Below are positions 1,179 to 32,179 of a stretch of DNA of 62,807 nucleotides, piece by piece. The stretch's first letter is position 1. Each line of letters starts with the position of its first letter. The notes under the pieces are model-generated. The model was not told where the DNA came from and searched no databases. It was given only the letters and a program-made list of their open reading frames with translations. The DNA is from a virus, in the IMG/VR virus record IMGVR_UViG_3300023184_000122, positions 1 through 62,807 of that record; one strand, written 5' to 3'. A program made the translations under genes and the position numbers.

Positions 1179-1238
1179 TTAAAAACAGAAAATTGTTTAG
1201 ATGTTATTTAATCGGCAAGCGGCTTGGTACAGCGGTTG

Positions 1239-1268
1239 TTGACAAACGGCTTGAGCCATTGCTACCAT
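1239..1268 (+). promoter_or_regulatory. Promoter of whiB-like gene, leaderless
   Basis: TTGACA (1239-1244), an 18-base spacer and TACCAT (1263-1268). The ATG at 1275 lies seven bases after the -10, where transcription should begin, and has no Shine-Dalgarno. A leaderless message is likely. Confidence 0.6.
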
Positions 1269-1274
1269 AACGGC

Positions 1275-1697
1275 ATGCCTATGGAACCCGTCTTCAATCC
1301 GAACGATGCATTAGTGCCGTCTGCCCGTAACTGGTCCTGGCAAGATAAAGCGCTGTGCAAAAGTAACGGCGTGGACGCGACGGTGTTCTTTAATGATGAC
1401 ATGCTTCGCGGTGTTGAGAAGCAGGCACGGGAGAGTGCCGCTAAAAAAATATGTACGGCATGCCCTATCAAGACGGAGTGCTTAGAGCACGCATTAGCGG
1501 TGCCCGAGAACTTCGGTGTGTGGGGTGGCTTGACAGAAGACGAACGGATGGTTATTGTTAAGTTTAAGAGATCAATTGACAGAGCAGAGAAAGCGGGAAT
1601 GAAAGCGGATGCTACTTCTTGGGTACATAGCGTACAAAGTGAATCAGATACAGAAACAACTATTACTCCCGTCGGAGTCGGATCAGAGAACCGCTGA
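1275..1697 (+). CDS. whiB: WhiB-family transcriptional regulator
   Basis: WhiB proteins are actinobacterial 4Fe-4S regulators that act on the sigma factor. The four cluster ligands are visible: C28, then C60, C63 and C69 in ICTACPIKTEC. They are followed by the diagnostic GVWGG turn at 81-85 and a basic C-terminal segment (VKFKRS) expected to touch DNA. The length (140 residues) is usual for the family. I chose ATG 1275 because a consensus promoter ends seven bases before it and an upstream TTG at 1224 would precede that promoter. The C-terminus overlaps the next gene by about 89 bases. Phage WhiB copies are known in mycobacteriophages, where they can affect host cell division and superinfection; the role here is inference. 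Confidence 0.9.
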   Translation: MPMEPVFNPNDALVPSARNWSWQDKALCKSNGVDATVFFNDDMLRGVEKQARESAAKKICTACPIKTECLEHALAVPENFGVWGGLTEDERMVIVKFKRSIDRAEKAGMKADATSWVHSVQSESDTETTITPVGVGSENR

Positions 1698-2182: not shown

Positions 2183-2354
2183 GGAAGTAAGGGTGGCTAA
2201 TTTACCTAACTGCGATTTTTGCGGACAGGTTGCAAATTATGATGGACAGACAATACTTGGCTCAGCGTGGGCAAATATGTGTCAGTCTTGTTTTGAAAGT
2301 CTTGGCAAGGGGCTGGGATTAGGACTAGGACAAAGATTGGTATTAAGCAAATGA
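2175..2354 (+). CDS. Small zinc-ribbon protein
   Basis: A 59-residue protein with two CxxC knuckles (CDFC at about residue 13 and CQSC at about 37), the classic spacing for one structural zinc. It is followed by a Gly/Leu-rich tail. It overlaps the preceding gene by 8 bases and the subtilase start by an ATGA, so it is translationally coupled on both sides. Function unknown; small ribbons of this type often bind nucleic acid or protein partners. Confidence 0.65.
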   Translation: MSKEVRVANLPNCDFCGQVANYDGQTILGSAWANMCQSCFESLGKGLGLGLGQRLVLSK

Positions 2355-3274
2355 CAAAAAATAAAATTATACTTATAGTAGTTGCGATATCAGCAACTCT
2401 ACTTCCAACTCAAACTGCGAGTGCAGTTGGAGAAAAAACTTTAGTAATTATTGACTCAGGCATAAATACAGATTTGGCTTGGGCTAAAAGTGCGGTCATA
2501 GATGAGGCATGCTTCGTTGAGTTTAATAGATGTCCAAATGGCTTCTCACAAATGATTGGTGCTGGTGCATCAAAGATTACTCCTGCTATGACAACTGCTG
2601 GTTCATTTAGTCATGGAACTCAAATGGCTTCAGTTGCGGTTGCGGTTGATCCAAATGTAAAAATTGTTTCTATCCGAGTTGCTGGTATGACTGCTAAGGG
2701 CGTTCCTAATCCTTACACAGCCAAAGCAATTTCTTGGGCGTTAGATTATGTGGAAGCAAATAAGGCACGACTAAATGTTGGTGCGGTTTCTATTTCGCTA
2801 GGTAACTCTTACAAATCAACTGAGTGTCCGATAGTTGGAAACCTACAAACACAAATTACTAACTTAATGGCTTCAGGAATACCTGTTGCTATTGCGGTTG
2901 GTAATGGTGGCTCTACCAAGATTGACTACCCTGCTTGTATCCCACAAGCGATTGCGGTGGGCGCAACTGAGGATAGGTATGCCATGAAAGAGGTGTCAGG
3001 TTGGGTGTATCCAATTATGGCTATTTCTAACTACAACTCTGATGTTGATTATTTTGTAAATGGTAAATACACAACATCTGATCTTTCAGATAATAAAAAG
3101 GTTTCTTTTGGAACTTCTAACTCAACTGTGGCTTTTGCTACTTACCTAACTAAAAGATTATCTGCGGGTGAAAACCTAACTGCGGTTTTGGCTAGCGTTA
3201 ATGCTTCTCTAGTCAATGCTTACAAAACTACGACACTCTTTTATCCTAAGCAGTTTAACTTGACAAACAGTTAA
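2351..3274 (+). CDS. Secreted subtilisin-like serine protease (S8)
   Basis: This 307-residue protein has a signal peptide (basic start, hydrophobic IILIVVAISATLL, cleavage probably after TASA near residue 25). The subtilase catalytic set then follows in order: D35 in IIDSGI, H88 in SHGTQMA, oxyanion N185 in AVGNGG and S256 in GTSNST. There is no obvious propeptide, and the domain is close to the minimum S8 length. It is expected to be exported by the host Sec system and act outside the membrane on host surface or secreted proteins. It is the last gene of the leaderless operon at 1865. A complete secreted subtilase is unusual phage cargo; a bacterial origin by transfer is plausible but not shown. 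Confidence 0.88.
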   Translation: MTKNKIILIVVAISATLLPTQTASAVGEKTLVIIDSGINTDLAWAKSAVIDEACFVEFNRCPNGFSQMIGAGASKITPAMTTAGSFSHGTQMASVAVAVDPNVKIVSIRVAGMTAKGVPNPYTAKAISWALDYVEANKARLNVGAVSISLGNSYKSTECPIVGNLQTQITNLMASGIPVAIAVGNGGSTKIDYPACIPQAIAVGATEDRYAMKEVSGWVYPIMAISNYNSDVDYFVNGKYTTSDLSDNKKVSFGTSNSTVAFATYLTKRLSAGENLTAVLASVNASLVNAYKTTTLFYPKQFNLTNS

Positions 3275-4592: not shown

Positions 4593-4859
4593 ATGAAAGA
4601 CGATATACAAGAACGCTGGAACGAAGGATATTACTCTGCTCTAAATGGGGCAAAGATTATTCGTTTTCTTGGCACTGTTCCTGAAGAGTTTGGTGGAACT
4701 GGTTTTCCACAGTTTCTAGTAAAACTCTCAACAGGGGAAATTATAGAGATGGAAGTTTCTAAAGACCCTGAAGGTAATGATGGCGGATTTTTATTTGGAC
4801 TTCCTGATTTTACTTTACCTGAGTTTCGTGAAAATTTATTAGGGAGGAAAAATGCCTAA
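4593..4859 (+). CDS. Hypothetical protein
   Basis: An 88-residue protein with a beta-rich middle (FLVKLSTGEIIEMEV) and acidic ends. The strong AAGGGGGAAAT ribosome site gives a firm start. It is the first gene downstream of the 4475 promoter and overlaps the next gene by 8 bases. Not recognised. Confidence 0.65.
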   Translation: MKDDIQERWNEGYYSALNGAKIIRFLGTVPEEFGGTGFPQFLVKLSTGEIIEMEVSKDPEGNDGGFLFGLPDFTLPEFRENLLGRKNA

Positions 4860-5514
4860 CTGGGTATATAACTATTTAACAGTAGAAGGTTCTAAAGAAG
4901 ACATAGCAAAATTAAAAGCGCAGGTTGGCGCAACTGTCAAAACAAAATATAAAAGCGCAGATGAGATAAATGAAGAAGTAGATAGAGAACCTATCTTTTC
5001 TTTTATGAACATACTTCCACCACCAGAAGATAAGTTAGATGAGTATCACGCTGTTCATGGATACGCCAATGGAGAAAAAACAGGCGATACTGAATACAAC
5101 TGGTATAACTTTAATGTTCGTGAGTGGGGAACTAAGTGGGATGCTCGTGATGTAGAACTTACAGAAGAACATGAAACATGTCTTCGCTATAAGTTTGATA
5201 CTGCTTGGTCGCCACCAACTCCAGTAATAGAAAAACTGGCACAACAAAATCCTAATCTAAACATTAACTTGGAATATCGTGAAGAACAGGGTTGGGGTGG
5301 AGAGATTGTTTTTAATGGTTCTACTGCTGAAGTTATTAAAGAGTGGGACATACCAGAAACTCATGCCGAAGAAATAGAAGCCAATTATGGCGATTGCTGG
5401 AGATGTGAAAACTTTGATGGCGATTTTAGCGACCTTTATCAAGATTGTCCTGAAAATCTAAAGCCAATAGAAATCCACGCCAAACAAGAACTGGTATTGA
5501 CAAAAGAAAAATAA
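4852..5514 (+). CDS. Api92-like protein with ferredoxin-like fold (DUF1281/YubB type)
   Basis: The 220-residue protein opens MPNWVYNYLTVEGSKEDIAKL, which matches the typical start of the Api92/YubB (DUF1281) family: an MPNW start followed by a ferredoxin-like beta-alpha-beta. WYNFNVREWGTKWDA and FDTAWSPPTPVIEKL are further family hallmarks. These proteins occur on phages and plasmids and their function is unknown. A ferredoxin-like fold here does not imply an iron-sulfur centre. Near the C-terminus GDCWRCENFDGD supplies a lone CxxC. It is coupled to the preceding gene by an 8-base overlap. Confidence 0.75.
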   Translation: MPNWVYNYLTVEGSKEDIAKLKAQVGATVKTKYKSADEINEEVDREPIFSFMNILPPPEDKLDEYHAVHGYANGEKTGDTEYNWYNFNVREWGTKWDARDVELTEEHETCLRYKFDTAWSPPTPVIEKLAQQNPNLNINLEYREEQGWGGEIVFNGSTAEVIKEWDIPETHAEEIEANYGDCWRCENFDGDFSDLYQDCPENLKPIEIHAKQELVLTKEK

Positions 5515-5556
5515 TTTGATAAAGTTCTATCAAGCCTAAAGAAAAGGGGAAATAAA

Positions 5557-5958
5557 ATGGGTGACCGCATGGTAGTTGGGTTTCAGGCAAAATCTGCCGA
5601 CCCAATAATTTATATCTACTCCCAATGGGGTGGAGAAGCACAAAAAGAAATCCTAGTAAATGCTTTACAAAAATCAGAAAGTCGTTGGACAGATGCCGAC
5701 TACGCAACTCGTATTTGTATTTCACAAATTGTTGGTGATAGTTGGAACGATACTTTGGGACATGGCATCTCAGTAAATACTTTCTGCTCACCTGACTACG
5801 ACACAATTCAGGTAGTTGAGTGGCATAAAGGAAAAGTATCTATTCGGGAAACAAGTAATCCTGAAAATGTTCTAGGGGAAATAAACCTAGAAACTTTCTG
5901 CCAAGACGAAACGCTGGTAAAAGAGCAATTTGACAAAATAGTCAAAGGTATGCAATAA
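5557..5958 (+). CDS. Conserved actinophage hypothetical protein
   Basis: A 133-residue protein starting MGDRMVVGFQAKSADPIIYIYSQW behind AAAAGGGGAAA. Its middle (YATRICISQIVGD) and ending look like a globular alpha/beta domain. Related hypothetical proteins occur in actinophages to my recollection. It lies in the operon leading to the AAA+ ATPase, so a link to that system is possible but unproven. Confidence 0.6.
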   Translation: MGDRMVVGFQAKSADPIIYIYSQWGGEAQKEILVNALQKSESRWTDADYATRICISQIVGDSWNDTLGHGISVNTFCSPDYDTIQVVEWHKGKVSIRETSNPENVLGEINLETFCQDETLVKEQFDKIVKGMQ

Positions 5959-6001
5959 TAACTACACCTAGCAAGAAACCTTAACCTAGAAAGGAAAAGA
6001 A

Positions 6002-6457
6002 ATGCTGGATAAAGAAAAGAAAGTTCAGGGAGTTGCGGTGTATGCCGAGTTCCGAAAGCCGGGACAAGTCATGCAGATACTTGTAACACCTGACGCATAT
6101 AACACTTCGGGAAGCCTAGTTCCAATGTCTTTCCACCGCAGAATAGTTACACCTGCGACACCTAAGAAACAATGGAGAACTACTTCCATTAACTCTAAAG
6201 AAGTAAAAGATTTGATTGATAATAGTCAAGTCTTACCTGATAGTGCTAAAGATGATTTTACGGAAAATCGTATGCGCTATACAACTTCCTATTTTGACAA
6301 CCTTATTTCTCATGGTTGGACTATGGAGAAAACTCCTATCCTTACTGAAATCTCTCGTCATGACGCAGATGATATTGGTAAGAGCAAAACACCTAACAAG
6401 GTTATTTATCGTATTCATATTTCTAGGAAAGCACTCGCCTTTCCTGAATTGGTATAA
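6002..6457 (+). CDS. Hypothetical protein upstream of AAA+ ATPase
   Basis: A 151-residue, rather basic protein with AGAAAGGAAAAG as its ribosome site. It is beta-rich at the start and helical in the middle, with no recognised motif. It ends 18 bases before the MoxR-type ATPase start, so the two are in one operon; a substrate or adaptor role for that ATPase is speculation. Confidence 0.6.
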   Translation: MLDKEKKVQGVAVYAEFRKPGQVMQILVTPDAYNTSGSLVPMSFHRRIVTPATPKKQWRTTSINSKEVKDLIDNSQVLPDSAKDDFTENRMRYTTSYFDNLISHGWTMEKTPILTEISRHDADDIGKSKTPNKVIYRIHISRKALAFPELV

Positions 6458-6475: not shown

Positions 6476-7528
6476 ATGACTACTCTAAAAGAGAAATACA
6501 AAGAACTAAGTCCTAATCTTTCACCGACTTATTGGGAAATGATTATAGATGTAGCAACGCAAGGAGTAAATGAAAATGCGTCAAAGCAATTATCTACCAA
6601 TGTGCTTCCGCAAGGACGCTATGTTGAGAGAGCGATTGGCTCTGACAGAAAAGCACGCAAAACAAAGGCAGACGCTCTCGTGAGTGTTGAGGCTTTGGGT
6701 GGCGAAAGTATTTACTTGCGTCCTAATGGTTCTGCCTACCATGCTCGTATATGGGGTCAAAACAAAGATGTAGAAGTTTTACGCAAAGCAAGAGAAGCAA
6801 CAAAGCAATCAGTTCTAACTGGTGTTGGACAACCAATGTTCGCCATGCTTTATGGAGTTCCCGGAACAGGTAAAACTGCGCTGGTTGAGGCTTCTTTTGG
6901 CGAAGGTGTTCGCACACTACTTGGAAATGGTGATGTAGAAGTTGCCGACCTAATTGGTTCTTATGTCCAAACTCCAAGTGGAAACTTTGAGTGGGTTGAT
7001 GGCGACCTAGTTAAGTCAGCAGAAAATGGGGAAGTTTATTTCATAGATGAGATTGGTCTGATTGACCCTAAGGTTCTTTCAGTTATTTACAATCTTATGG
7101 ACGGAAAAAGAGAGATAACAATTACTGCTAATCCTGAAAGAGGAACAGTAAAATCTCACCCTGATTTTTATGTAGTTGCCGCAACTAATCCAAAGGCTCC
7201 GGGTGTAAGACTTAGCGAAGCATTACTATCTCGCTTTGTTGTCCAAGCAGAAATGACAACTGATTGGAACTTGGCTCGCAGTTTAGGAGTGCCAACACAA
7301 ATGGTAACTTGCGCACAAAACTTGTATCGCAAAGTTCTGAATAAAGAAAGAATAAGTTGGTCGCCACAAATGCGAGAACTTCTCGCCTTTCGTGATATAG
7401 CAACAACTTTCGGAACTGAGTTTGCTATTGCCAACATGATTGCGTCAGCCCCAACTGACGATAGGGCAGTAGTCGCAGATGTTCTAACCCGAGCGTATGG
7501 GGTAGAAGCAAAGCCTGCCAAAATCTAA
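6476..7528 (+). CDS. MoxR-type AAA+ ATPase
   Basis: A 350-residue protein with Walker A GVPGTGKT at 127-134, Walker B VYFIDE at 187-192, sensor 1 AATNP at 235-239 and a candidate arginine finger in LLSRF at 251-255. An additional roughly 110-residue N-terminal segment precedes the ATPase core. The organisation fits the MoxR/RavA/CbbQ branch, whose members remodel partner proteins together with a VWA-domain protein. The next gene encodes exactly such a partner, although it has its own promoter. Shine-Dalgarno AAAGGGG. The stop codon lies in a small inverted repeat (7522-7539). Confidence 0.9.
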   Translation: MTTLKEKYKELSPNLSPTYWEMIIDVATQGVNENASKQLSTNVLPQGRYVERAIGSDRKARKTKADALVSVEALGGESIYLRPNGSAYHARIWGQNKDVEVLRKAREATKQSVLTGVGQPMFAMLYGVPGTGKTALVEASFGEGVRTLLGNGDVEVADLIGSYVQTPSGNFEWVDGDLVKSAENGEVYFIDEIGLIDPKVLSVIYNLMDGKREITITANPERGTVKSHPDFYVVAATNPKAPGVRLSEALLSRFVVQAEMTTDWNLARSLGVPTQMVTCAQNLYRKVLNKERISWSPQMRELLAFRDIATTFGTEFAIANMIASAPTDDRAVVADVLTRAYGVEAKPAKI

Positions 7529-7553
7529 TTTATTAGATTGGCTGGGTAGGGTC

Positions 7554-7586
7554 GAGAGCGTGTTTCTCTAGGTGAAACTCGCTCTC
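7554..7586 (+). terminator. Strong hairpin after AAA+ gene
   Basis: GAGAGCGTGTTTC pairs with GAAACTCGCTCTC (one mismatch) around a 7-base loop. No T-run follows, so it may be a weak terminator or an RNA-processing or mRNA-end structure between the ATPase gene and the next promoter. Confidence 0.5.
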
Positions 7587-7596
7587 CCCTATTAAC

Positions 7597-7625
7597 TTGA
7601 CAATAAATACCTAGTATGCAATAAT
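7597..7625 (+). promoter_or_regulatory. Promoter, TATGNAATAAT family
   Basis: TTGACA (7597-7602), 12 bases, TATGCAATAAT (7615-7625); AATAAT is 17 bases from the -35. The same arrangement occurs at 9959 and 13177. Confidence 0.75.
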
Positions 7626-7650
7626 TAGATTAACAAAGGGGGTAGTAAAA

Positions 7651-9426
7651 ATGGCTCATATAAAAATGAGTGAAACTCGTGCCGAAGCCACACCTAAAGA
7701 GTGGTTAGGGATTGGTAGAGATGTTGGGCAGTTAGCAAACAAATGGTCGCTTCGTGAGGACTTGGTTGCTTATGTTGGTCCGGGTGCTGGTGGCTCTGCG
7801 CCTGCGTGTTACAACCCAATGACAGCAGAAGTAGAAGTAAATGTTGATGTCGCTTTCGGAAAAGGAGTTACTCCACTAGAGATTGGTGATATTTCTAATC
7901 GCTCTACTCAGTATGAGTTTCCTAAAGCAACTGGCGCAATTATTCATGAAGCCTTTCATGCTCGCTTCTCAGGTTGGTCTATGCCTAAAGCGTATGAGGA
8001 ATTAGAAAAAGATGAATACAAAGCCTTAATTTTATTAGAGGAAAGTCGTATTGAGTATCAGGGTGTTGTTGCTAATCCAAAGGCTCGTGCCTTCCTTCGC
8101 TCTTGCGCTATGGAAATTGTTATTGGTGATACAAAAGATATGGAAAATGAAACACAAACGCAATCGCTAACTAATCTTGTTGGACTTGTTCATGCTCGTA
8201 TTGACGCTGGTATCTTAGATGAACATGAAGTAAAAGATGTAACTACAATTATTGAGAAGCAACTTGGTCTTGATGTTATTTCTAAATTAAGAGAAGTAGT
8301 TCGTAAAGCACAACTTCATGATAACCACAGGGACGCAACAGAACTTTATCCACTAGCAAAAGAGTGGGCAAAGATTGTTCGTGATACTGCTAAAGAGCGT
8401 GGAGATGAAAACGCTGGTGAAGGTATGAAAATGCCTAAAGAACTTCTTAAAGCAATCATGGGCGCACTTGGAGAAGCAAGTGGTTCAGTAGAACTAAATA
8501 ACTTTGGCGAACTTGCCGAGCAAGAACAATCTGAGGATTGGAAAGAGGAAGTTAAGGCTAAGGCTTCTGACGCTAATGAGCAGAAAGAAAATGAAGTGGT
8601 GGCTCAGAAAGTATTCAGTAAGAGTTCAGGTCCGGGTCAATCAGATACTAACAGCACTTTAATTGAGAGTAGAGAACCTACCTTTGAGGAATTGCGTGCT
8701 TCTTTAATTATTGGTGAAGCGTTAGAAAAAGCCAAGTATCGTGAGAGAGATGAATTACAAGTTTCTAGTTCCGTTCCACCCGGACGACTTCGCTCTCGTG
8801 CTATTGTCCAAAATACTGCTTATCGTGCTAGAGGACAAATGGCACAAGCAAAACCTTTCCGTAGAACAGTTCGCAAACACACAGACGAACCAACTCTTAA
8901 TGTTGGTGTAATGGTTGATATTTCAGGTTCTATGGGAAGTGCTATGAACCCAATGGCTACAACTGCGTGGGTAATGAGTGAAGCAGTAAATCGTATTCAG
9001 GGAAACTGCGCTATGGTTTATTACGGAAATGATGTATTCCCAACTTTATCTGCTGGACAAAGATTAAGTAAAGTAAATGTTTATTCTGCTTCGGACGGAA
9101 CTGAAAAGTTTCAGAAAGCCTTCCAAGCACTAGACGGCTCACTAAACTTACTTCACGGAACTGGCGCAAGACTTCTAGTAATTGTTTCTGACGGCGAATA
9201 CACTCCTGAGGAAAACAAAAGAGCAAGAGAAGTTATGGAAAAATGTAAAGCGTCAGGCGTTGCGGTTTTATGGTTGCCCTTTGATGAAGGCAGAAGTGCG
9301 AAAGATATTGGTGGAGATTACGCCGAGATTGTTCTAAATATAAATCAACCTGCTGAAACTGCCGAAGTTATTGGCAGGTCAGCGCAAGCAGTTATGACAA
9401 GAATTGGTGAGCGTGAAAGTGCTTAA
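7651..9426 (+). CDS. HExxH metallopeptidase-like / VWA-domain protein (partner of MoxR ATPase)
   Basis: The 591-residue protein joins two parts. The N-terminal third contains HEAFH (99-103), an HExxH zinc motif, and about 27 residues later LLEESRIE (around 128-135), which could give the third ligand. This layout recalls DUF2201-type putative metallopeptidases. A charged middle linker follows. The C-terminal third is a von Willebrand factor A domain with the metal-ion site DISGS at 423-427 and VSDGEYT near 512-518. VWA proteins act as adaptors for MoxR AAA+ ATPases, and the ATPase is immediately upstream. The start has a strong AAAGGGGG site. It may be likened to CobT/ViaA-type proteins; the substrate is unknown. 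Confidence 0.85.
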   Translation: MAHIKMSETRAEATPKEWLGIGRDVGQLANKWSLREDLVAYVGPGAGGSAPACYNPMTAEVEVNVDVAFGKGVTPLEIGDISNRSTQYEFPKATGAIIHEAFHARFSGWSMPKAYEELEKDEYKALILLEESRIEYQGVVANPKARAFLRSCAMEIVIGDTKDMENETQTQSLTNLVGLVHARIDAGILDEHEVKDVTTIIEKQLGLDVISKLREVVRKAQLHDNHRDATELYPLAKEWAKIVRDTAKERGDENAGEGMKMPKELLKAIMGALGEASGSVELNNFGELAEQEQSEDWKEEVKAKASDANEQKENEVVAQKVFSKSSGPGQSDTNSTLIESREPTFEELRASLIIGEALEKAKYRERDELQVSSSVPPGRLRSRAIVQNTAYRARGQMAQAKPFRRTVRKHTDEPTLNVGVMVDISGSMGSAMNPMATTAWVMSEAVNRIQGNCAMVYYGNDVFPTLSAGQRLSKVNVYSASDGTEKFQKAFQALDGSLNLLHGTGARLLVIVSDGEYTPEENKRAREVMEKCKASGVAVLWLPFDEGRSAKDIGGDYAEIVLNINQPAETAEVIGRSAQAVMTRIGERESA

Positions 9427-15142: not shown

Positions 15143-15715
15143 ATGACAACTATTGCAGCGATACAGGGAGAGAACTGGGCTGCCATAGGGTATGACGCAA
15201 GACTGACTGAAGACAATAGCAAGATCTATACGCTGCCTAAAGACAATGGAAAAGTAAATAGAAACGGTCCATACTTAATTGGCGCGGCTGGAGATATGCG
15301 TGCCATTAACATACTTACACATGTTTTTAAGCCACCTGCCATAAATCCAAACCTTTACGGGGCAAAGTTAGACAAGTTTATCTCCTCAGTCTTTATCCAA
15401 GATATGAAACACTGCTTCGAGGAAAACTCTTACAGCAAAGATGGAGAGCATGACTCTCAAGTAATGGTTGCGGTTAATGGAACTATCTACGAAATTGGTG
15501 ATGACTATTCTTGGGCACATGATGAAACAGGCGTATATGCCATAGGTTCTGGTGGTGGATACGCAATGGGAGCAATGCTGGCAAGCCTAGACAGCAAAAA
15601 GAAAACCTTAGGCACAGCCAAGAATGTTATTAGACAAGCAATAACTATCGCTGCCAAGTTAGATCCAAGCACAGGGCTGCCGATCAATATTGCGGTACAG
15701 CACTTCGGATCTTAA
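15143..15715 (+). CDS. Proteasome/HslV-like Ntn hydrolase
   Basis: A 190-residue protein starting MTTIAAIQGENW. Removal of Met would expose Thr as the N-terminal nucleophile, as in HslV and proteasome beta subunits. D18 in GYDARL corresponds to the conserved Asp17 of the mature enzyme, and K33 or K37 could be the catalytic lysine. GAAGDMR at 48-54 and GVYAIGSGGGYAMGAML (about 129-145) match the conserved G-G turn and the YALGSG--YA-GA helix of the family. The length is typical. No cognate ATPase is adjacent; the AAA+ at 6476 is a distant possibility. It is expected to form rings and cut unfolded proteins; being a single subunit type it would be HslV-like. The ribosome site is the weak TTGGGGAAAA. 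Confidence 0.85.
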   Translation: MTTIAAIQGENWAAIGYDARLTEDNSKIYTLPKDNGKVNRNGPYLIGAAGDMRAINILTHVFKPPAINPNLYGAKLDKFISSVFIQDMKHCFEENSYSKDGEHDSQVMVAVNGTIYEIGDDYSWAHDETGVYAIGSGGGYAMGAMLASLDSKKKTLGTAKNVIRQAITIAAKLDPSTGLPINIAVQHFGS

Positions 15716-24755: not shown

Positions 24756-25919
24756 ATGTCAAAGCAGATTAATCCATTAGATTGGGTAAAAGATGAAAAT
24801 AGGGACTACATCCCTTTTTCAGGTATTTCTGCTGCTGGTAAAGGTCCATGTTGGGATGGTTATAAGCAGGTTGGAATGAAAAAAGGTAAGAATGGAAATA
24901 TGGTACCCAACTGCGTTCCTATCGATGCTTCAGATGATTCAGAGTTTGCAGCAAAAAATAAAAGAACAATTTCTCAGACTCCTGCTCCTAAGAAAGATCA
25001 AGTTAAGGGTTCTAGTAAAAATAAAAAAGGATCTGCATCAGGTTCTCGTAAAGTTGTTTTTTCTAAAGCAGTAGAGAACTCTCTTAAAGAGAAAGTCTCT
25101 AATCATAACGAGAAAAGTCCTAAAGGAAGAAGAGCAACTTTAGGTATGTTAAAAGCAGTTTATCGTCGTGGCGCTGGAGCATTTTCTGTTTCTCATCGTC
25201 CTGGTATGAACCGTAATCAGTGGGCAATGGGAAGAGTAAATGCTTTTCTAAAACTACTTAAGTCTGGCAGACCAACAAATGCTGCTTATAAGTCAGACAA
25301 TGATTTGCTACCATCTTCTCATCCTCGTAGCACTAAAAAATCAAACTCTATTACTGCAGCAGGTTTAGTTCCTGAAGAACAAGATTTAGCAAATGCATTG
25401 ATTGAGATCTCGCAGAAGTATGGAAAATTTAATGAAGACGAAGAAGGTATTTGGGCAGGCTACACGCCGCCAGCGGAAAATGAAGTTGCTTCTATTGGTG
25501 TTACTTGCGCCAATTGCGTTCTATATGCTGGGGGTTCGAATTGTAAAATCATTGCTCTCCCAGTTGAGCCAACAGGAAAATGTAGATTTGCCGTAATACC
25601 TGACGGAGTTGTTAATGTAGAAGGCAGTAAAAATCTAACTGAAGTAAAAGATGAATTAGATGAGTACGTAATAGATCAAGAGTTAAATGTTCTACTAAAG
25701 AACAAAGAAGATTATGAAACTGTAGAAGATGCAATTTTTGCTATGACTGAGTATCTAGGTTATGGATATGAAGCAGAGCCTGCAATTAGAGCAAGTTGGT
25801 TAAGAGCAGTTAAAAATGGAGAAGATCCATTCTTAAGAGCATCACTTCTTGCTTCACTAGGAAAAGGTAGTTTAGATGCAGATTTGCTTCCAGTACTAGA
25901 AGAGGAGGATCAATCATGA
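24756..25919 (+). CDS. Head-module protein with Cys4 cluster
   Basis: A 387-residue protein in several parts: a Lys-rich middle, a segment LGMLKAVYRRGAGAFSVSHR and NQWAMGRVNAFLKLLKSGRP, a linker DLLPSSHPRSTKKSNSITAAG, and then a four-cysteine group C251-x2-C254-x8-C263-x12-C276 reminiscent of small iron-sulfur (HiPIP-like) domains. The segment with GAGAFS-S-RPG-NR-QWAM-RVNAFL is familiar from phage head proteins of unknown function. The linker recurs in the giant protein downstream. Possibly an internal virion protein; roles inferred from position. Confidence 0.65.
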   Translation: MSKQINPLDWVKDENRDYIPFSGISAAGKGPCWDGYKQVGMKKGKNGNMVPNCVPIDASDDSEFAAKNKRTISQTPAPKKDQVKGSSKNKKGSASGSRKVVFSKAVENSLKEKVSNHNEKSPKGRRATLGMLKAVYRRGAGAFSVSHRPGMNRNQWAMGRVNAFLKLLKSGRPTNAAYKSDNDLLPSSHPRSTKKSNSITAAGLVPEEQDLANALIEISQKYGKFNEDEEGIWAGYTPPAENEVASIGVTCANCVLYAGGSNCKIIALPVEPTGKCRFAVIPDGVVNVEGSKNLTEVKDELDEYVIDQELNVLLKNKEDYETVEDAIFAMTEYLGYGYEAEPAIRASWLRAVKNGEDPFLRASLLASLGKGSLDADLLPVLEEEDQS

Positions 25920-28900
25920 GTAGAATAAGAAGAATTAGTTATGCCATCACTCCTGAAGGTCGTCGTGCTGTTGCTATTAAGCAAGCAGTAGATTTAAGAG
26001 ATAAAGTTTTGTCAGTTGTAGATAATGCTAACTTTTCAACATCTACTGCAAGAAAGATTACTAAAAAAGCTGCTTTTTCTGTAGTTATGCGCTCTCTAGA
26101 AGAGAGCAAAGGATTGCCACTATCTCTCCGCGAGCACTTAGCAATGAAAGAACTTAATAAGTACATATCACTTGCTAAACATAATAAAAGTGATTTTTTC
26201 TACGCAACTAATACAGATTTATTACCAATCTCTCACCCACGCTCAACTCGCGAGCATTCAATGACTGCTAGTGCATTAAGAATTGCACGCTCTCGTTGGT
26301 TTGCTGCTGATCCAAGGATTACAGATGAAAGAGCAAAAGCAGTTCTTGCTTCAGCATTTGAATCTATACCAGGGTCTGTGGAGCATCTTTACTACACTTC
26401 AATACTACTTTCACTTCCTCAAGGAATGATTCCAGGCGAGGCTTTAATTGCAGCATCTGATGGAAACTCTTTTGAGTCACGTAGTGCTCGTGCTAGACGT
26501 CAACGTCGTGATCGTAAAGGAAGATTTGCTTATGAAGGTGGAGGCATTCGTGCTCTCATTCGACGCCTTGACGGAAATGTATTTAGTCTTAGTGGAAGAG
26601 TAGTTGCCAACGCTAAAAATAGTAAAGATGTAGAAGTAGAGTTTCCAGATGGAAAAATCGCTGAAATAAATCCTGCTAAAGGTGAATATATAAAAGCAGT
26701 TCTACCTACTCCAGATGGCTACTCTCCTGAACCTATAATTCCAAGCGTAACTGATGAAGTTATAAATGAAAAAGATTTAGTATTTCTTGATGCCCCTAAC
26801 GGCTGGGAAAAAGATGAAAAATATAAAGAGTTTGGCGATAAAGTAGAGAGATATGTAGATTCTAACAAAGAATTTGTAGTTTTTGTGTCTAAACAAGATG
26901 ACGGTACAAAAGATTATCAAATACTAAACGCTAAGTCCGCTGAGCAAATTGGTGTAGTAAAGACTTGGGCAGATGTTCAAGATAAATTAGAAGGAAATGA
27001 AGATAAACTATTAAATCCAAAAGCAAATCTTCCATTTAGACAAGGCTTAATTCCTGCTGAAGATAGACCAGGGCCAAATGCATATGAAAAACTTATGGCT
27101 GAGAAAAAGGATAAAGAAAACGCTCTTGCAAATCGTAAAGCAGAGTTAAAGAAGAATGCTGATGACAGAGTAGATGCTTTAGATCGCACTGTTCCTGAAG
27201 GCTGGGATATTGAAGAGAAGAACAATGCTCTTATGTTACGCAGAGCAACAGAGCCAGCAGATTTAGAGAACGTATACAAGCAAGATAACTTTGTAGCAAG
27301 AGTTGTAGAGCAAGGCGAGATTTCAGTTAAAGATGTAAACAATCTTTTAGAAGATAAGGTTTATCAGAACTGGGCTTATGTAGATAAAGATAAAGATGCT
27401 AGAGCTACAGAGTATGCTCAAAAGGCTCGTGAAGAGATTAAAAACTTTGCTCCTGCTTATGGGTATAAAGAAGAAGATCTAAACAAGATTGATGCAATGT
27501 CTGCTGATGAGATTGCTAGTTTCTTTTTAGATGAAAAACTTCAACCAGAAGGATTTGCTAGTGCATTAGATGACTACATGAACTCAGCTATGGTAGATGC
27601 TCCATCTAAGCAACAAGAAGAAAAGTGGAAGAGTTTTGGTCAAAAATTAAAAATTATAAATGATGCTGGAGATTTCCCTGGCAATAATAAAAAGAAGGCA
27701 GATCTTCCTAAACAACCAGATGCTCCAGTTGAAACTAAAGGTGGTTTTGAATTTAACTACCCACCTGGGGCATATAAAATTAAGCAAGGTTCTGCATATG
27801 ATCCTCAAGGGCGCGTAGATGAAGATAGTCCAGACTTTACAGATGACCCTATTGAACTTGCTCAAAAGCAAGATGAAAGAGACATACTTGTTGCATTAGA
27901 GCAAGCAGTTTCTCCAGGAGAAAACGGGGAGAATGCTTTAGGAGTAGGCGCTCTTCCTTTTGCTAAAGGCGATGAGTTTGTTCCTGCTGAAGCACTTTTC
28001 TTTGCTTTAGAAGAAGCAGGAATTGATGCTCCTATGGAGTTAGCAAAGATTTATGATAAAAAACTTGGTGCTGATAACAATGAAAAAGCATTAAATGATT
28101 TTAGAAAGAAAGCAGAAATTATTTCTGGCAATACTCCAGAACTTGCCGAGTCATTTAAAAAAGTTACAGAACAAAATCCTGATTTAGAGCCTCCTACTCA
28201 AGAACCAAAGTTTGATGCTAAAGAGATGGATTTGATTCCACTTCCTCCGCTTCTAGAAGGTCTTAGCCAAAAAGAGTTAGATCAATTTAATGAAACAAAA
28301 GATCACATTCCATACTTGCCTAAAAATGAAGAGATTCAGATGCCAGAAGGCTATAACCCTCTTAGCCCAGAGCCATTTGCAGCATGGAAAGATGTAACTG
28401 CAGAAAATCCTGATGCAATTCTTCCTGAAGGATTCTCAGATAATCCTGTTTTCTTAGCGCAAGAAATTTCTACAAATGATTTATTAAAAGAGTTACGTCG
28501 ATCTGTAGAACCAGGTAACGAGGTTCCAGGTGCTGCTGTAATAGCCCTTCCTACAGATGATGGAGAAGATTTTGTTGCAAACGTGCCAGGAGAAGCAGTT
28601 AGAGATGCTCTTCAACTTAAAGGCATAGACACTAACGCTGAGTTAAGAAAAATTGCTGAAGAAGGATTAGTTGGTCAAGTAGAGGATGTAGCCGATGTAA
28701 ATATCCCTGCTGATGATGCTATACGTCTTATTGTTGATGGAGATGTTCCACTAGAGACTCAAATTAAAGATGCAATTGCTGCTAAACAAAAAATTGCATT
28801 CCTTTATAACGGCACTGAGCGTTTAGTTCTTCCTGTAGAAGTATTCGAGAACCCTAGAAATTCAAATGTAAATGTAAGAGCAATTGACGCAAACGGAGAC

Positions 28901-31900
28901 AGAAGAACATTTACTCTCAGCAAGATTGAGAATAGTAAAGAAGGTTCACCAGTCGCAGTTGAAATCACTGATAAAGAGATTTTTGACCGACGTATGGCTG
29001 GAGAGTCATTACAAGACATTGCAGATGCTACAGGTATCCCTCGTGAAGAGATTCGCGCAAGAGAGGCTAAGTATGCTCGAGAGAATCCAGAAGCAAAGCC
29101 AGAAGCAGTTGTTGGAGACTACAAACCTACTGCTGATCAAATAGATAAACTTCAAAAAGGTGTTGCAGAGATGGACTGGTTAGATAACGGAATTATGTTC
29201 CTAAAGCCTGATGATGGCGGTCCTCGTGCAGAAGCACCTATCGAAATCTATGACGATAATGGTTTACCAGAAGATGGTCCATTCGCAAAGATTGATTCAG
29301 ATGGAAACTTTGAATGGAAAGATCAAGCAGCATATGATAAATATGCTGATCGCTTAAAAGAAATTATTGATGCTGATTTAGTAGGTATTGGTGATAATCA
29401 AGATAATCAACAACCACAAGAAATTAATAATGTCCCTGTTGAGCAGGCAAAACTTGACGACAATCAAGAGCCAAAAGATAAAACTTATGTAGAAGAAAAC
29501 CCTGAAGTAATTAAAGTAAATGCTTTTGTTGAAGCAAATGCTGGACGTCTTGCTCCTACTAAAGCAAGAGATGTAAAAATTGGTGACTTCTTGTGGAATA
29601 ACTTTAATAAAGTTTATGAAGAAATTCTTGATATTCAACCAGCACCTTTTGGTCGAGTCAGATTCTTAATTAAAGATCCAAGAAATCAAAAAGAGTATTT
29701 CCGTTTCTTTGATCGTCGCTCTCCTATTCGCAACATGCGTCGTCTTGGTACTGGAGAAGTACCTGAAGATTTTAGAGTTCCGTCAGAAGAAAATAAAGGA
29801 GACGGACCAAAGCGTGGTCGCGCCCTAAGACAGCCACTAGAACAAAGAGTTGAAGTAGTTGCTGGTCGCGATGTAGGAGGATTTGCATACAGAGAAGGCT
29901 TCTATAAAGATAAAAATGGAATTGTTTTAAAACCTGGTGACAGAGTTCGTCATGGAAACGCAAAAAAGAATGAGATGTACGGCGAGGGTGTAGTTGTTGT
30001 TCGCGCTGGAGACCAAATTGATGAAGCCAAAAAGGTTGGTGGAATTGGTCGTAACGGAAAAGTTTACAAAGACTATGTTTGGGTACAAGTCCCTGGTGAA
30101 GACGGTCCACGTTTGTGGAAGTCAAGAATGATTGTTAAGCAAGCAGACGGCGCAGGTCCTGCTCGCGTTGCACCTGAGGCTAGAGATGTTGCACCAGATG
30201 CTCCTAAGGTAGAGGTTCCTAAAGCAGAGCCAATAGCAGAAAAAATTCCTGACGCTGCTGATATGAATGAAGAACTTGTTCAAAAAGAACTTAAGAGAGT
30301 TAGAGTTAAGTATTTCCCTAAAGCAAGAGATTATGCAGCAAACGATGAAGTCCGTAATGCTGGTAAAAAACTAGATGAACTAGTTAATAGACTAAATGCT
30401 GGAGAAAAAATAGAAGATCTTTCCACATCTCCTTTAGATTCAGCAATTCGTAAACTACGCAGAGTGAGAGATTTAGAAAATAACCCTAATGCATTAGTTC
30501 TTGCTGACTATGTAGAAAACTTTAAGAAGGAAATAGAAAAATACAAGAATGAAAAAGATAAAGCAAGACGTGCTGAATTTGAAAAAATATTAAATGAGCC
30601 AATACCAGATGACTTAATTCCAGCAGATGTAAACGGTCTCGATGAAGAAAAAATTAAAGAGGCTATAAAAGTAATCTCTATCAAACTTCCTAAGTGGAAT
30701 GAAAGAGGCGCTAATCGAAAAGCAAGTGAGGCTGCTTATTATCTAGATAGTTTTGCTAGAGAGATAGATCAAGGTCAAGTTATTGAAGGAATTGATCCCT
30801 CTGATTTACTTCGAGTATCTACATACTTAAAAAATTCAGGCGATGCTAGGTATGAGGCTTTGGGCGATAAGATAGATCAACTTAATGAACTTATTAAACA
30901 AAAACAAGCAGCAAACCAGAAGCCTTTTGCTAAAGCAAACATGGAGTTTATTGATCCTGTTGCTGAAGCAGAAAAAAGAGTTAATAATAAAGATAATGAA
31001 TTCAACGCCTCTAACAAACTACGCTCTGCCTTTGCCTCAGATGAAATTTATCAACAGAACTCTTATCTAGATCCTCACAAAGAGCAACTAAAAGAATTCT
31101 TTGCTCTAGAAGGCGGTGCTTCTTTAGCAAAACTAGATCAAAAGGCTCGTCAGGCTTTGGCTCAGTATGCAAGTCAGGAGATTAGAAATCCTGAAGGTAT
31201 GCAGGGCGCAGATGAGGCTGAGACAGAAAAGAATATAAATGAAATTGCTACTTTAGTAAAAGCACTGCACGATGAAAAAATGGTTTATAGTCCAAACAGA
31301 TCTAATATTGGACCAGCAGATGCTTTATTAAACGTAGATCCTACTAAAATTTTAAATTTTGGAAAAGCTCTTAATTCAGGAGTTCGTAAAAAGTTAGTTA
31401 TAGATGGAAATGACACTGGCTTTGATATTCAAAGAGTTTCTCAAGGTATAAATAGCGGTAGCAACTTTAGACTTATACATAGACAGAGTGGTCAAGTTGT
31501 TTACTTTAAGAGAGAAAAAACAGAGGGAACAGCTAATGCAGAGTATATTTCTTCAAAGATAGCTCAATCTTTGGGTATTGCAGGTGCAGCATATGTTCAA
31601 AAGCACCCAAATGATTCTAGAACAGTTATAATCACAAATGCTGGCGACGGAATAGATTTTAAGAATAAGCCAGTGTTATTTGATGAATTCCCTGGTAAAT
31701 CTTCAACCGAGACTATTGCTAAAAGAGCCTCTCTTGCAGATGTAGTTGGTTTAGCAGTCCTTGATGCTGTTATTTACAATACTGATAGACATGTACAAAA
31801 TTTCTTAGCAGGAGTCGTTGACAATAAAGGCGTAGATAAAAATGGTTATGAAGAAATTCAACTTTTACCAATTGATCACGGATACGCTCAACTTCTAAAT

Positions 31901-32179
31901 GGTGGTGGTAGTAGAAGTGTTACAGATCCATTTACCCACATGAAGGGCAGGGATGCTAGATCAGGTGGAGAGATTAATAGGGCAGTAGCTAAACAAATTG
32001 GAGCAACTGCATATAAAGAATTAATAGACATGACTGCTCAACAAGCGATCCAAGCACTAAAAAGAATGTATGGTTCTGATATTAGTAAAGAAACTTTAGA
32101 CGAGGTTATTAGTCGTTTAGAAGCACTAAGAGGTATAAGTAAAGAAAAATGGCGTACTGGTTTAGCGGGAAGGAATTAG
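25916..32179 (+). CDS. Giant head-associated protein (2087 aa) with C-terminal HipA/PI3K-like kinase domain
   Basis: The longest gene in the window, starting behind GAGGAGGATC and coupled by ATGA. The N-terminal ~200 residues contain DLLPISHPRSTREHSMTAS and RDRKGRFAYEGG. A long acidic/Lys-rich middle includes two copies of an ~80-residue unit (about 640-715 and 838-915). The C-terminal ~250 residues look like a protein/lipid kinase of the HipA/PI3K/actin-fragmin type: a strand ending FKRE with K1865 as possible ATP-binding lysine, TANAEYISSKIAQSLGI, the catalytic loop NTDRHVQNFL (D1957, N1962) and the metal site PIDHG (D1987). Position between portal and protease suggests a virion protein ejected with DNA. 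MuF-type effector fusions offer a precedent, but the kinase activity is inference. Confidence 0.72.
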   Translation: MSRIRRISYAITPEGRRAVAIKQAVDLRDKVLSVVDNANFSTSTARKITKKAAFSVVMRSLEESKGLPLSLREHLAMKELNKYISLAKHNKSDFFYATNTDLLPISHPRSTREHSMTASALRIARSRWFAADPRITDERAKAVLASAFESIPGSVEHLYYTSILLSLPQGMIPGEALIAASDGNSFESRSARARRQRRDRKGRFAYEGGGIRALIRRLDGNVFSLSGRVVANAKNSKDVEVEFPDGKIAEINPAKGEYIKAVLPTPDGYSPEPIIPSVTDEVINEKDLVFLDAPNGWEKDEKYKEFGDKVERYVDSNKEFVVFVSKQDDGTKDYQILNAKSAEQIGVVKTWADVQDKLEGNEDKLLNPKANLPFRQGLIPAEDRPGPNAYEKLMAEKKDKENALANRKAELKKNADDRVDALDRTVPEGWDIEEKNNALMLRRATEPADLENVYKQDNFVARVVEQGEISVKDVNNLLEDKVYQNWAYVDKDKDARATEYAQKAREEIKNFAPAYGYKEEDLNKIDAMSADEIASFFLDEKLQPEGFASALDDYMNSAMVDAPSKQQEEKWKSFGQKLKIINDAGDFPGNNKKKADLPKQPDAPVETKGGFEFNYPPGAYKIKQGSAYDPQGRVDEDSPDFTDDPIELAQKQDERDILVALEQAVSPGENGENALGVGALPFAKGDEFVPAEALFFALEEAGIDAPMELAKIYDKKLGADNNEKALNDFRKKAEIISGNTPELAESFKKVTEQNPDLEPPTQEPKFDAKEMDLIPLPPLLEGLSQKELDQFNETKDHIPYLPKNEEIQMPEGYNPLSPEPFAAWKDVTAENPDAILPEGFSDNPVFLAQEISTNDLLKELRRSVEPGNEVPGAAVIALPTDDGEDFVANVPGEAVRDALQLKGIDTNAELRKIAEEGLVGQVEDVADVNIPADDAIRLIVDGDVPLETQIKDAIAAKQKIAFLYNGTERLVLPVEVFENPRNSNVNVRAIDANGDRRTFTLSKIENSKEGSPVAVEITDKEIFDRRMAGESLQDIADATGIPREEIRAREAKYARENPEAKPEAVVGDYKPTADQIDKLQKGVAEMDWLDNGIMFLKPDDGGPRAEAPIEIYDDNGLPEDGPFAKIDSDGNFEWKDQAAYDKYADRLKEIIDADLVGIGDNQDNQQPQEINNVPVEQAKLDDNQEPKDKTYVEENPEVIKVNAFVEANAGRLAPTKARDVKIGDFLWNNFNKVYEEILDIQPAPFGRVRFLIKDPRNQKEYFRFFDRRSPIRNMRRLGTGEVPEDFRVPSEENKGDGPKRGRALRQPLEQRVEVVAGRDVGGFAYREGFYKDKNGIVLKPGDRVRHGNAKKNEMYGEGVVVVRAGDQIDEAKKVGGIGRNGKVYKDYVWVQVPGEDGPRLWKSRMIVKQADGAGPARVAPEARDVAPDAPKVEVPKAEPIAEKIPDAADMNEELVQKELKRVRVKYFPKARDYAANDEVRNAGKKLDELVNRLNAGEKIEDLSTSPLDSAIRKLRRVRDLENNPNALVLADYVENFKKEIEKYKNEKDKARRAEFEKILNEPIPDDLIPADVNGLDEEKIKEAIKVISIKLPKWNERGANRKASEAAYYLDSFAREIDQGQVIEGIDPSDLLRVSTYLKNSGDARYEALGDKIDQLNELIKQKQAANQKPFAKANMEFIDPVAEAEKRVNNKDNEFNASNKLRSAFASDEIYQQNSYLDPHKEQLKEFFALEGGASLAKLDQKARQALAQYASQEIRNPEGMQGADEAETEKNINEIATLVKALHDEKMVYSPNRSNIGPADALLNVDPTKILNFGKALNSGVRKKLVIDGNDTGFDIQRVSQGINSGSNFRLIHRQSGQVVYFKREKTEGTANAEYISSKIAQSLGIAGAAYVQKHPNDSRTVIITNAGDGIDFKNKPVLFDEFPGKSSTETIAKRASLADVVGLAVLDAVIYNTDRHVQNFLAGVVDNKGVDKNGYEEIQLLPIDHGYAQLLNGGGSRSVTDPFTHMKGRDARSGGEINRAVAKQIGATAYKELIDMTAQQAIQALKRMYGSDISKETLDEVISRLEALRGISKEKWRTGLAGRN

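Follow-up and report, generated by a model that had tools for sequence, protein, structure and literature searches.

Pairs made up of a MoxR-group AAA+ ATPase and a VWA protein include NorQ/NorD and CbbQ/CbbO, which serve metal insertion or Rubisco activation; to our knowledge, neither has an HExxH domain. In NorQD, the ATPase ring holds the VWA domain, a finger reaches into the pore, and the VWA domain is twisted against the N-terminal domain as ATP is hydrolysed (PMC13036017). Viral pairs have been interpreted in two ways. In jumbo phages of group 2.2, Iyer et al. (2021; PMC7824862) described a chaperone pair whose vWA protein carries a fused metallopeptidase at its N terminus, and proposed a role in assembly by analogy with p618/p892, a viral MoxR/VWA chaperone pair of Acidianus two-tailed virus. 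Pairs from archaeal tailed viruses (haloarchaeal) and cyanophages have been classed as CobST, with the cobT 'mistakenly annotated as a peptidase' (PMC8651126). MoxR/VWA pairs are found repeatedly in tailed phages, and no substrate was found for any that has the peptidase motif; nor did the literature yield a bench-tested pair with such a motif, or the papers searched any activity data for a phage member.

The pair considered here is encoded in IMG/VR virus record IMGVR_UViG_3300023184_000122, the whole 62,807 nt of which we call the window (Table 1). Both proteins are also encoded, as identical copies, by a 103-kb IMG/VR contig, and an isolate from lake water, Actinomycetia phage DSL-LC01, is related. 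The related contigs, this isolate and a WhiB gene in the window (1224-1697) together point to a tailed phage whose hosts would be freshwater Actinobacteria. The pair is very probably a protein remodeller or protease driven by ATP, as predicted from its motifs, and it is of a kind already described: since the same architecture (N-terminal peptidase motif and C-terminal VWA, with the MoxR gene adjacent) was published for jumbo phages in 2021, it is a further example and not a new kind. The likeness to the jumbo-phage example (ASV44728/9, ASV44728.2) is by the published description of the architecture, and the window family differs from it in its actinophage-type hosts, its 151-aa third gene and its separate promoter and hairpin. 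In Agrobacterium phage Atu_ph07, AAA_5 matches had no HExxH/MIDAS partner within the short stretches around them.

Table 1. Coordinates of the MoxR/VWA locus, its motifs and the HslV-like gene in the window
Feature	Position	Strand	Basis or conservation
151-aa protein, no known family	6002..6457	+	third conserved component
MoxR-group (CbbQ/NorQ-like, AAA_5) AAA+ ATPase, 350 aa	6476..7528	+	Pfam, PHROG, Foldseek
Walker A, G127-T134 incl. K133 (...GVPGTGKT)	6854..6877	+	invariant in 23 relatives except V128, T131
Walker B, D191-E192	7046..7051	+	invariant in 23 relatives
ATPase C-terminal tail PAKI-COOH	7514..7525	+	AKI-COOH in 23/23 relatives
GC-rich hairpin, without U-tract	7545..7593	+	-27.1 kcal/mol; z -3.2
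Putative sigma-70-like promoter, TTGACA-N17-AATAAT	7597..7625	+	11/12 consensus matches
HExxH-VWA partner protein, 591 aa	7651..9426	+	ORF, alignment, AlphaFold2
HEAFH, residues 99-103, predicted helix 91-106	7945..7959	+	H99, E100, H103 invariant in 39 phage proteins
LEESRIE, residues 129-135, predicted helix 120-141	8035..8055	+	R133, E135 invariant in 39
MIDAS DxSxS, residues 423-427	8917..8931	+	D423, S425, S427 invariant in 39
MIDAS Asp, D514	9190..9192	+	invariant in 39
HslV-family N-terminal-Thr peptidase	15143..15715		PHROG 1040, E=3e-25

A preliminary description of this DNA had read the two larger genes of the locus as a MoxR/VWA pair, with which the ORFs, the AAA_5 match and a complete MIDAS all agree. 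The MoxR-type identity of the ATPase is well borne out by matches to Pfam AAA_5 (E=4e-19) and PHROG 16448 (1e-51), by fold relatives in Foldseek (CbbQ/NorQ, E 5e-15) and by an AAA_5 domain in which Walker A and B, sensor 1 and the Arg finger are all intact; the best solved relatives by sequence are Midasin, CbbQ and NorQ. Sensor-1 N238 and R253 are invariant in the same 23 relatives as the Walker residues. The ATPase homologues of Microbacterium and Gordonia phages end in Ile or Val, mostly as (A/I)(K/R)I, and because all the closer relatives end in AKI-COOH and most of these distant ones end similarly, the C terminus probably serves as a contact site. In NorQD it is the C-terminal opening of the ring that holds the VWA domain (PMC13036017).

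The motif residues of the VWA protein are all invariant in a first set of 24 relatives, in which T484, belonging to the complete MIDAS (DxSxS, T, D), is nearly so. A broader alignment of 39 homologues, comprising these relatives, proteins of Gordonia, Microbacterium and Brevibacterium phages and gene 150 of cyanophage P-SSM2, reaches down to about 15% identity and leaves just nine invariant columns: H99, E100, H103, R133, E135, D423, S425, S427 and D514. As an alignment result, the coincidence of these nine with the peptidase-type motif and the MIDAS alone is beyond chance. The N-terminal HEAFH pointed out in the preliminary description is accordingly HExxH in 39/39 proteins, and in LLEESRIE, where it saw a possible third ligand, the downstream Glu is kept (E130 in 38/39 proteins, E131 in 36/39) on a predicted helix. 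The third zinc ligand is likely to be E130 or E131, the choice among these and E135 being ambiguous. An AlphaFold2 model of the single chain (pLDDT 84.5) places HEAFH and LEESRIE on two separate confident helices, followed by a long helix (263-322) and a C-terminal VWA fold. The VWA half matches the MIDAS domains of NorD and Rea1 in fold searches, and the whole chain matches phage VWFA/CobT-like proteins; among the whole-chain matches listed there were only VWA domains and no zincin. Profile comparison of the N-terminal region with solved zincins and Pfam peptidases gave no match, searches of solved-structure profiles with the full protein and with that region gave nothing meaningful, and DUF2201, suggested earlier as the family to look for, was not matched in a Pfam HMM search. 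Versions without the peptidase motif exist, since the VWA protein of P74-26 has the MIDAS but no HExxH. Both genes are under strong purifying selection, with dN/dS values of 0.05-0.20 for the ATPase and 0.16-0.23 for its partner.

These matches bear on the idea that the pair is a chaperone for metal insertion or remodelling, in which HExxH would bind a metal without proteolysis, much as NorQD or CobST act without it. NorQ and CbbQ are the best structural matches of the ATPase, NorD is among those of the VWA half, and cellular CobT has the same (V/M/L)ExxRxE motif; but all 39 proteins keep the catalytic Glu, E100, and the metal-inserting CobT has lost HExxH, so we consider this idea unlikely.

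The relationship to CobT deserves closer attention, as it touches the dispute in the literature. The viral pairs termed CobST (PMC8651126) resemble ours in combining an AAA+ protein with an HExxH...ExxRIE...MIDAS protein, and both motifs occur in P-SSM2 gene 150 ('peptidase'), although identity to it is only about 15% and three small ORFs stand between the two genes in P-SSM2. For the cellular side we used four bacterial CobT proteins from plasmids (a CobT fragment served only as bait). All four keep ExxRxE, like CobS/CobT pairs generally resembling the phage pair as an AAA+/VWA couple, but none has HExxH, showing HDEKMH, HDDAIS, SDAALH or HDPRLH instead. The shared motif, and a profile comparison in which the VWA halves align with an hhalign E of 4e-7, suggest kinship between the phage family and CobT, at any rate in the VWA half. 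HDxxxH-like remnants stand in cellular CobT at the place of the phage HExxH, and the simplest reading of them is that CobT carries a decayed peptidase site, the direction of change being our supposition.

It has been proposed that such genes form a viral CobST that joins the host CobN and raises cobalamin output (PMC8651126), and annotations of DSL-LC01 and in SEA-PHAGES, as well as the kinship of the VWA halves, would agree with this. Against it, Pfam CobT gave no match to the phage proteins, although a control genome was detected, Pfam CobN was found in none of 13 phage records (phage genomes only), and HExxH is absent from the four real CobTs but kept in 39/39 phage proteins. A cobalamin role was thus already disfavoured and is very improbable, and 'cobalamin biosynthesis' labels are unsupported because CobT lacks HExxH and no CobN was found in those 13 records. 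Because the phages keep HExxH strictly where the four CobTs have lost it, we favour the peptidase side of the dispute (PMC7824862) over the CobST side (PMC8651126). In Microbacterium phages the VWA protein is labelled 'AAA-ATPase' and in DSL-LC01 'cobalamin biosynthesis protein'; both labels lack support.

The ATPase and VWA genes are adjacent in all 27 IMG/VR contigs that extend far enough, and also in DSL-LC01. Among isolate-phage records, all 21 that have a match to the VWA protein have one to the ATPase as well, even though one or two genes separate the two in Gordonia phages and about 30 kb or more lies between them in Microbacterium phages. This retention of both genes even after physical separation argues for a functional partnership. 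In isolate genomes the pair is found among replication, nucleotide-metabolism, WhiB, MazG, rIIA/rIIB and lysis-adjacent genes, and in none of those read does it fall within the structural module.

That location weighs on two views of what the pair does. It could be a virion-assembly chaperone with a built-in peptidase, folding and trimming structural proteins, which would be compatible with our main reading and would fix the role. The same architecture and proposal were put forward by analogy with p618/p892 (PMC7824862), and ATV ORF892 was met in the fold search with the VWA protein (2e-4); p618/p892, however, come from an archaeal virus and are without a peptidase domain (PMC7824862), and the position of the genes outside the structural module in every isolate genome read speaks against assembly, which we regard as a tentative possibility. 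The preliminary description had suggested that it may be an anti-defence or host-remodelling machine. A protease for anti-defence or host takeover would suit genes lying outside the structural set and a family apparently restricted to phages (two scans of bacterial genomes found no relatives), but PADLOC gave no match, no such neighbours accompany the pair, and its strong purifying selection and near-universal retention in the group differ from what is typical of accessory anti-defence genes. The earlier proposal was therefore not upheld, and we rate this role as decidedly improbable.

A third gene belongs to the locus. In 27/27 IMG/VR contigs an ORF for a 151-aa protein, without matches in Pfam or PHROG, is directly upstream of the ATPase gene, from which it is separated in the window by 18 bases, and the two are probably on one transcript. 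Homologues occupy the same place in DSL-LC01 (E 7e-39) and in four Microbacterium phages (E 2e-12 to 4e-6). The preliminary description had assigned all the genes from 4593 to 6457 to an operon with the ATPase; the 151-aa gene is indeed a consistent neighbour, but the others are less constant. In the four Microbacterium phages the 151-aa homologue and the ATPase gene are followed directly by rIIA-like (HATPase) and rIIB-like genes, with the VWA gene about 30 kb or more away, so the 151-aa gene stays beside the ATPase gene even where the VWA gene has moved. Comparisons gave no support for identifying the 151-aa protein with the part fused onto the long Gordonia ATPases, or with a gene lying between the Gordonia ATPase and VWA genes.

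The hairpin that had been noticed between the ATPase and VWA genes is a real and positionally conserved feature as judged from the sequences: none of 200 shuffles was equally stable, and 11 divergent relatives have hairpins of unrelated sequence at the same position, most (not all) of them more stable than shuffles. The second promoter placed beside it in the preliminary description is less secure. The near-consensus match is there, and most relatives have a TTGACA box at the same place after the hairpin, but sigma-70-like sites across the region are in total at chance level, no commoner than expected. Separate control of the VWA gene from this predicted promoter is plausible.

Homologues of the proteasome have been reported from phages before (PMC8665760), and the window encodes an HslV-family peptidase, with the catalytic N-terminal Thr and the catalytic Asp and Lys conserved, to which the pair might be supposed to feed substrates as the unfoldase arm of a proteasome-like protease. 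The gene is present in 24/28 contigs, in DSL-LC01 and in Pumpernickel, but it was not found in four contigs or in any of the Gordonia and most of the Microbacterium phages that keep the pair; conversely, one record (L103) has HslV with no pair within 10 kb. With so many phages having the pair but no such gene found, a fixed partnership is unlikely, and HslV is probably separate. The distribution rules it out as an obligate partner, and the C-terminal tail of the ATPase as an HslV dock was likewise rejected, the tail persisting in contigs where HslV was not found; the unfoldase-arm idea is, in our view, hardly credible. Three contigs (G007, G009 and G010) have second, more divergent HslV-like copies. 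Elsewhere in the window, ORF 2351-3274 is of the subtilase family (Peptidase_S8) with a signal-peptide-like start, and ORF 4852-5514 carries a DUF1281_C domain, the ferredoxin-like domain found at the C terminus of Api92-like proteins (Pfam 1e-11). The neighbouring ORFs 24756-25919 and 25916-32179, which lie downstream of the portal gene, have a peptide in common, DLLPxSHPRSTxxxSxTAxxL; it stands near residue 180 in the one and near residue 100 in the other and is possibly a processing or targeting tag.

The reading to which we give slightly better than even credence is that of a two-protein (probably three-protein) ATP-driven machine, in which the VWA partner has a gluzincin-type site that cuts or strains a captured protein. 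Its direct support is the intact and strictly conserved ATPase, HExxH and MIDAS motifs, the constant pairing and the third conserved gene; from the named families, we infer ring formation, docking and motion. The ATPase would assemble as a ring on which the VWA domain of the partner would dock, as NorD does on NorQ, with the MIDAS gripping the ring or the target protein. ATP hydrolysis would shift the VWA domain with respect to the N-terminal domain, whose predicted zinc site (HExxH plus the downstream Glu) would cut, or strain and trim, the captured protein; if the N-terminal domain is a zinc peptidase, the motor would either power cleavage or act as its gate. The substrate would most likely be a complex of phage or host proteins on which the machine acts in the course of infection. 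Strict conservation supplies targets for point mutants (H99, E100 and D423 in the VWA protein, K133 in the ATPase), for which DSL-LC01 and the Gordonia and Microbacterium phages are suitable isolates.

A bolder form of this proposal, put forward with a good deal of reserve, is that the 151-aa protein as adaptor, the MoxR ring and the VWA-zincin make up a phage protease or remodelase with three genes of its own. It would be common across tailed phages, where it would long have been mistaken for CobST or for solitary ATPases; the VWA domain, rotating at the expense of ATP, would gate a zinc peptidase on the same chain, and cellular CobT would carry that peptidase domain in decayed form. If this were true, its protease logic would be unlike that of FtsH, Lon or Clp.
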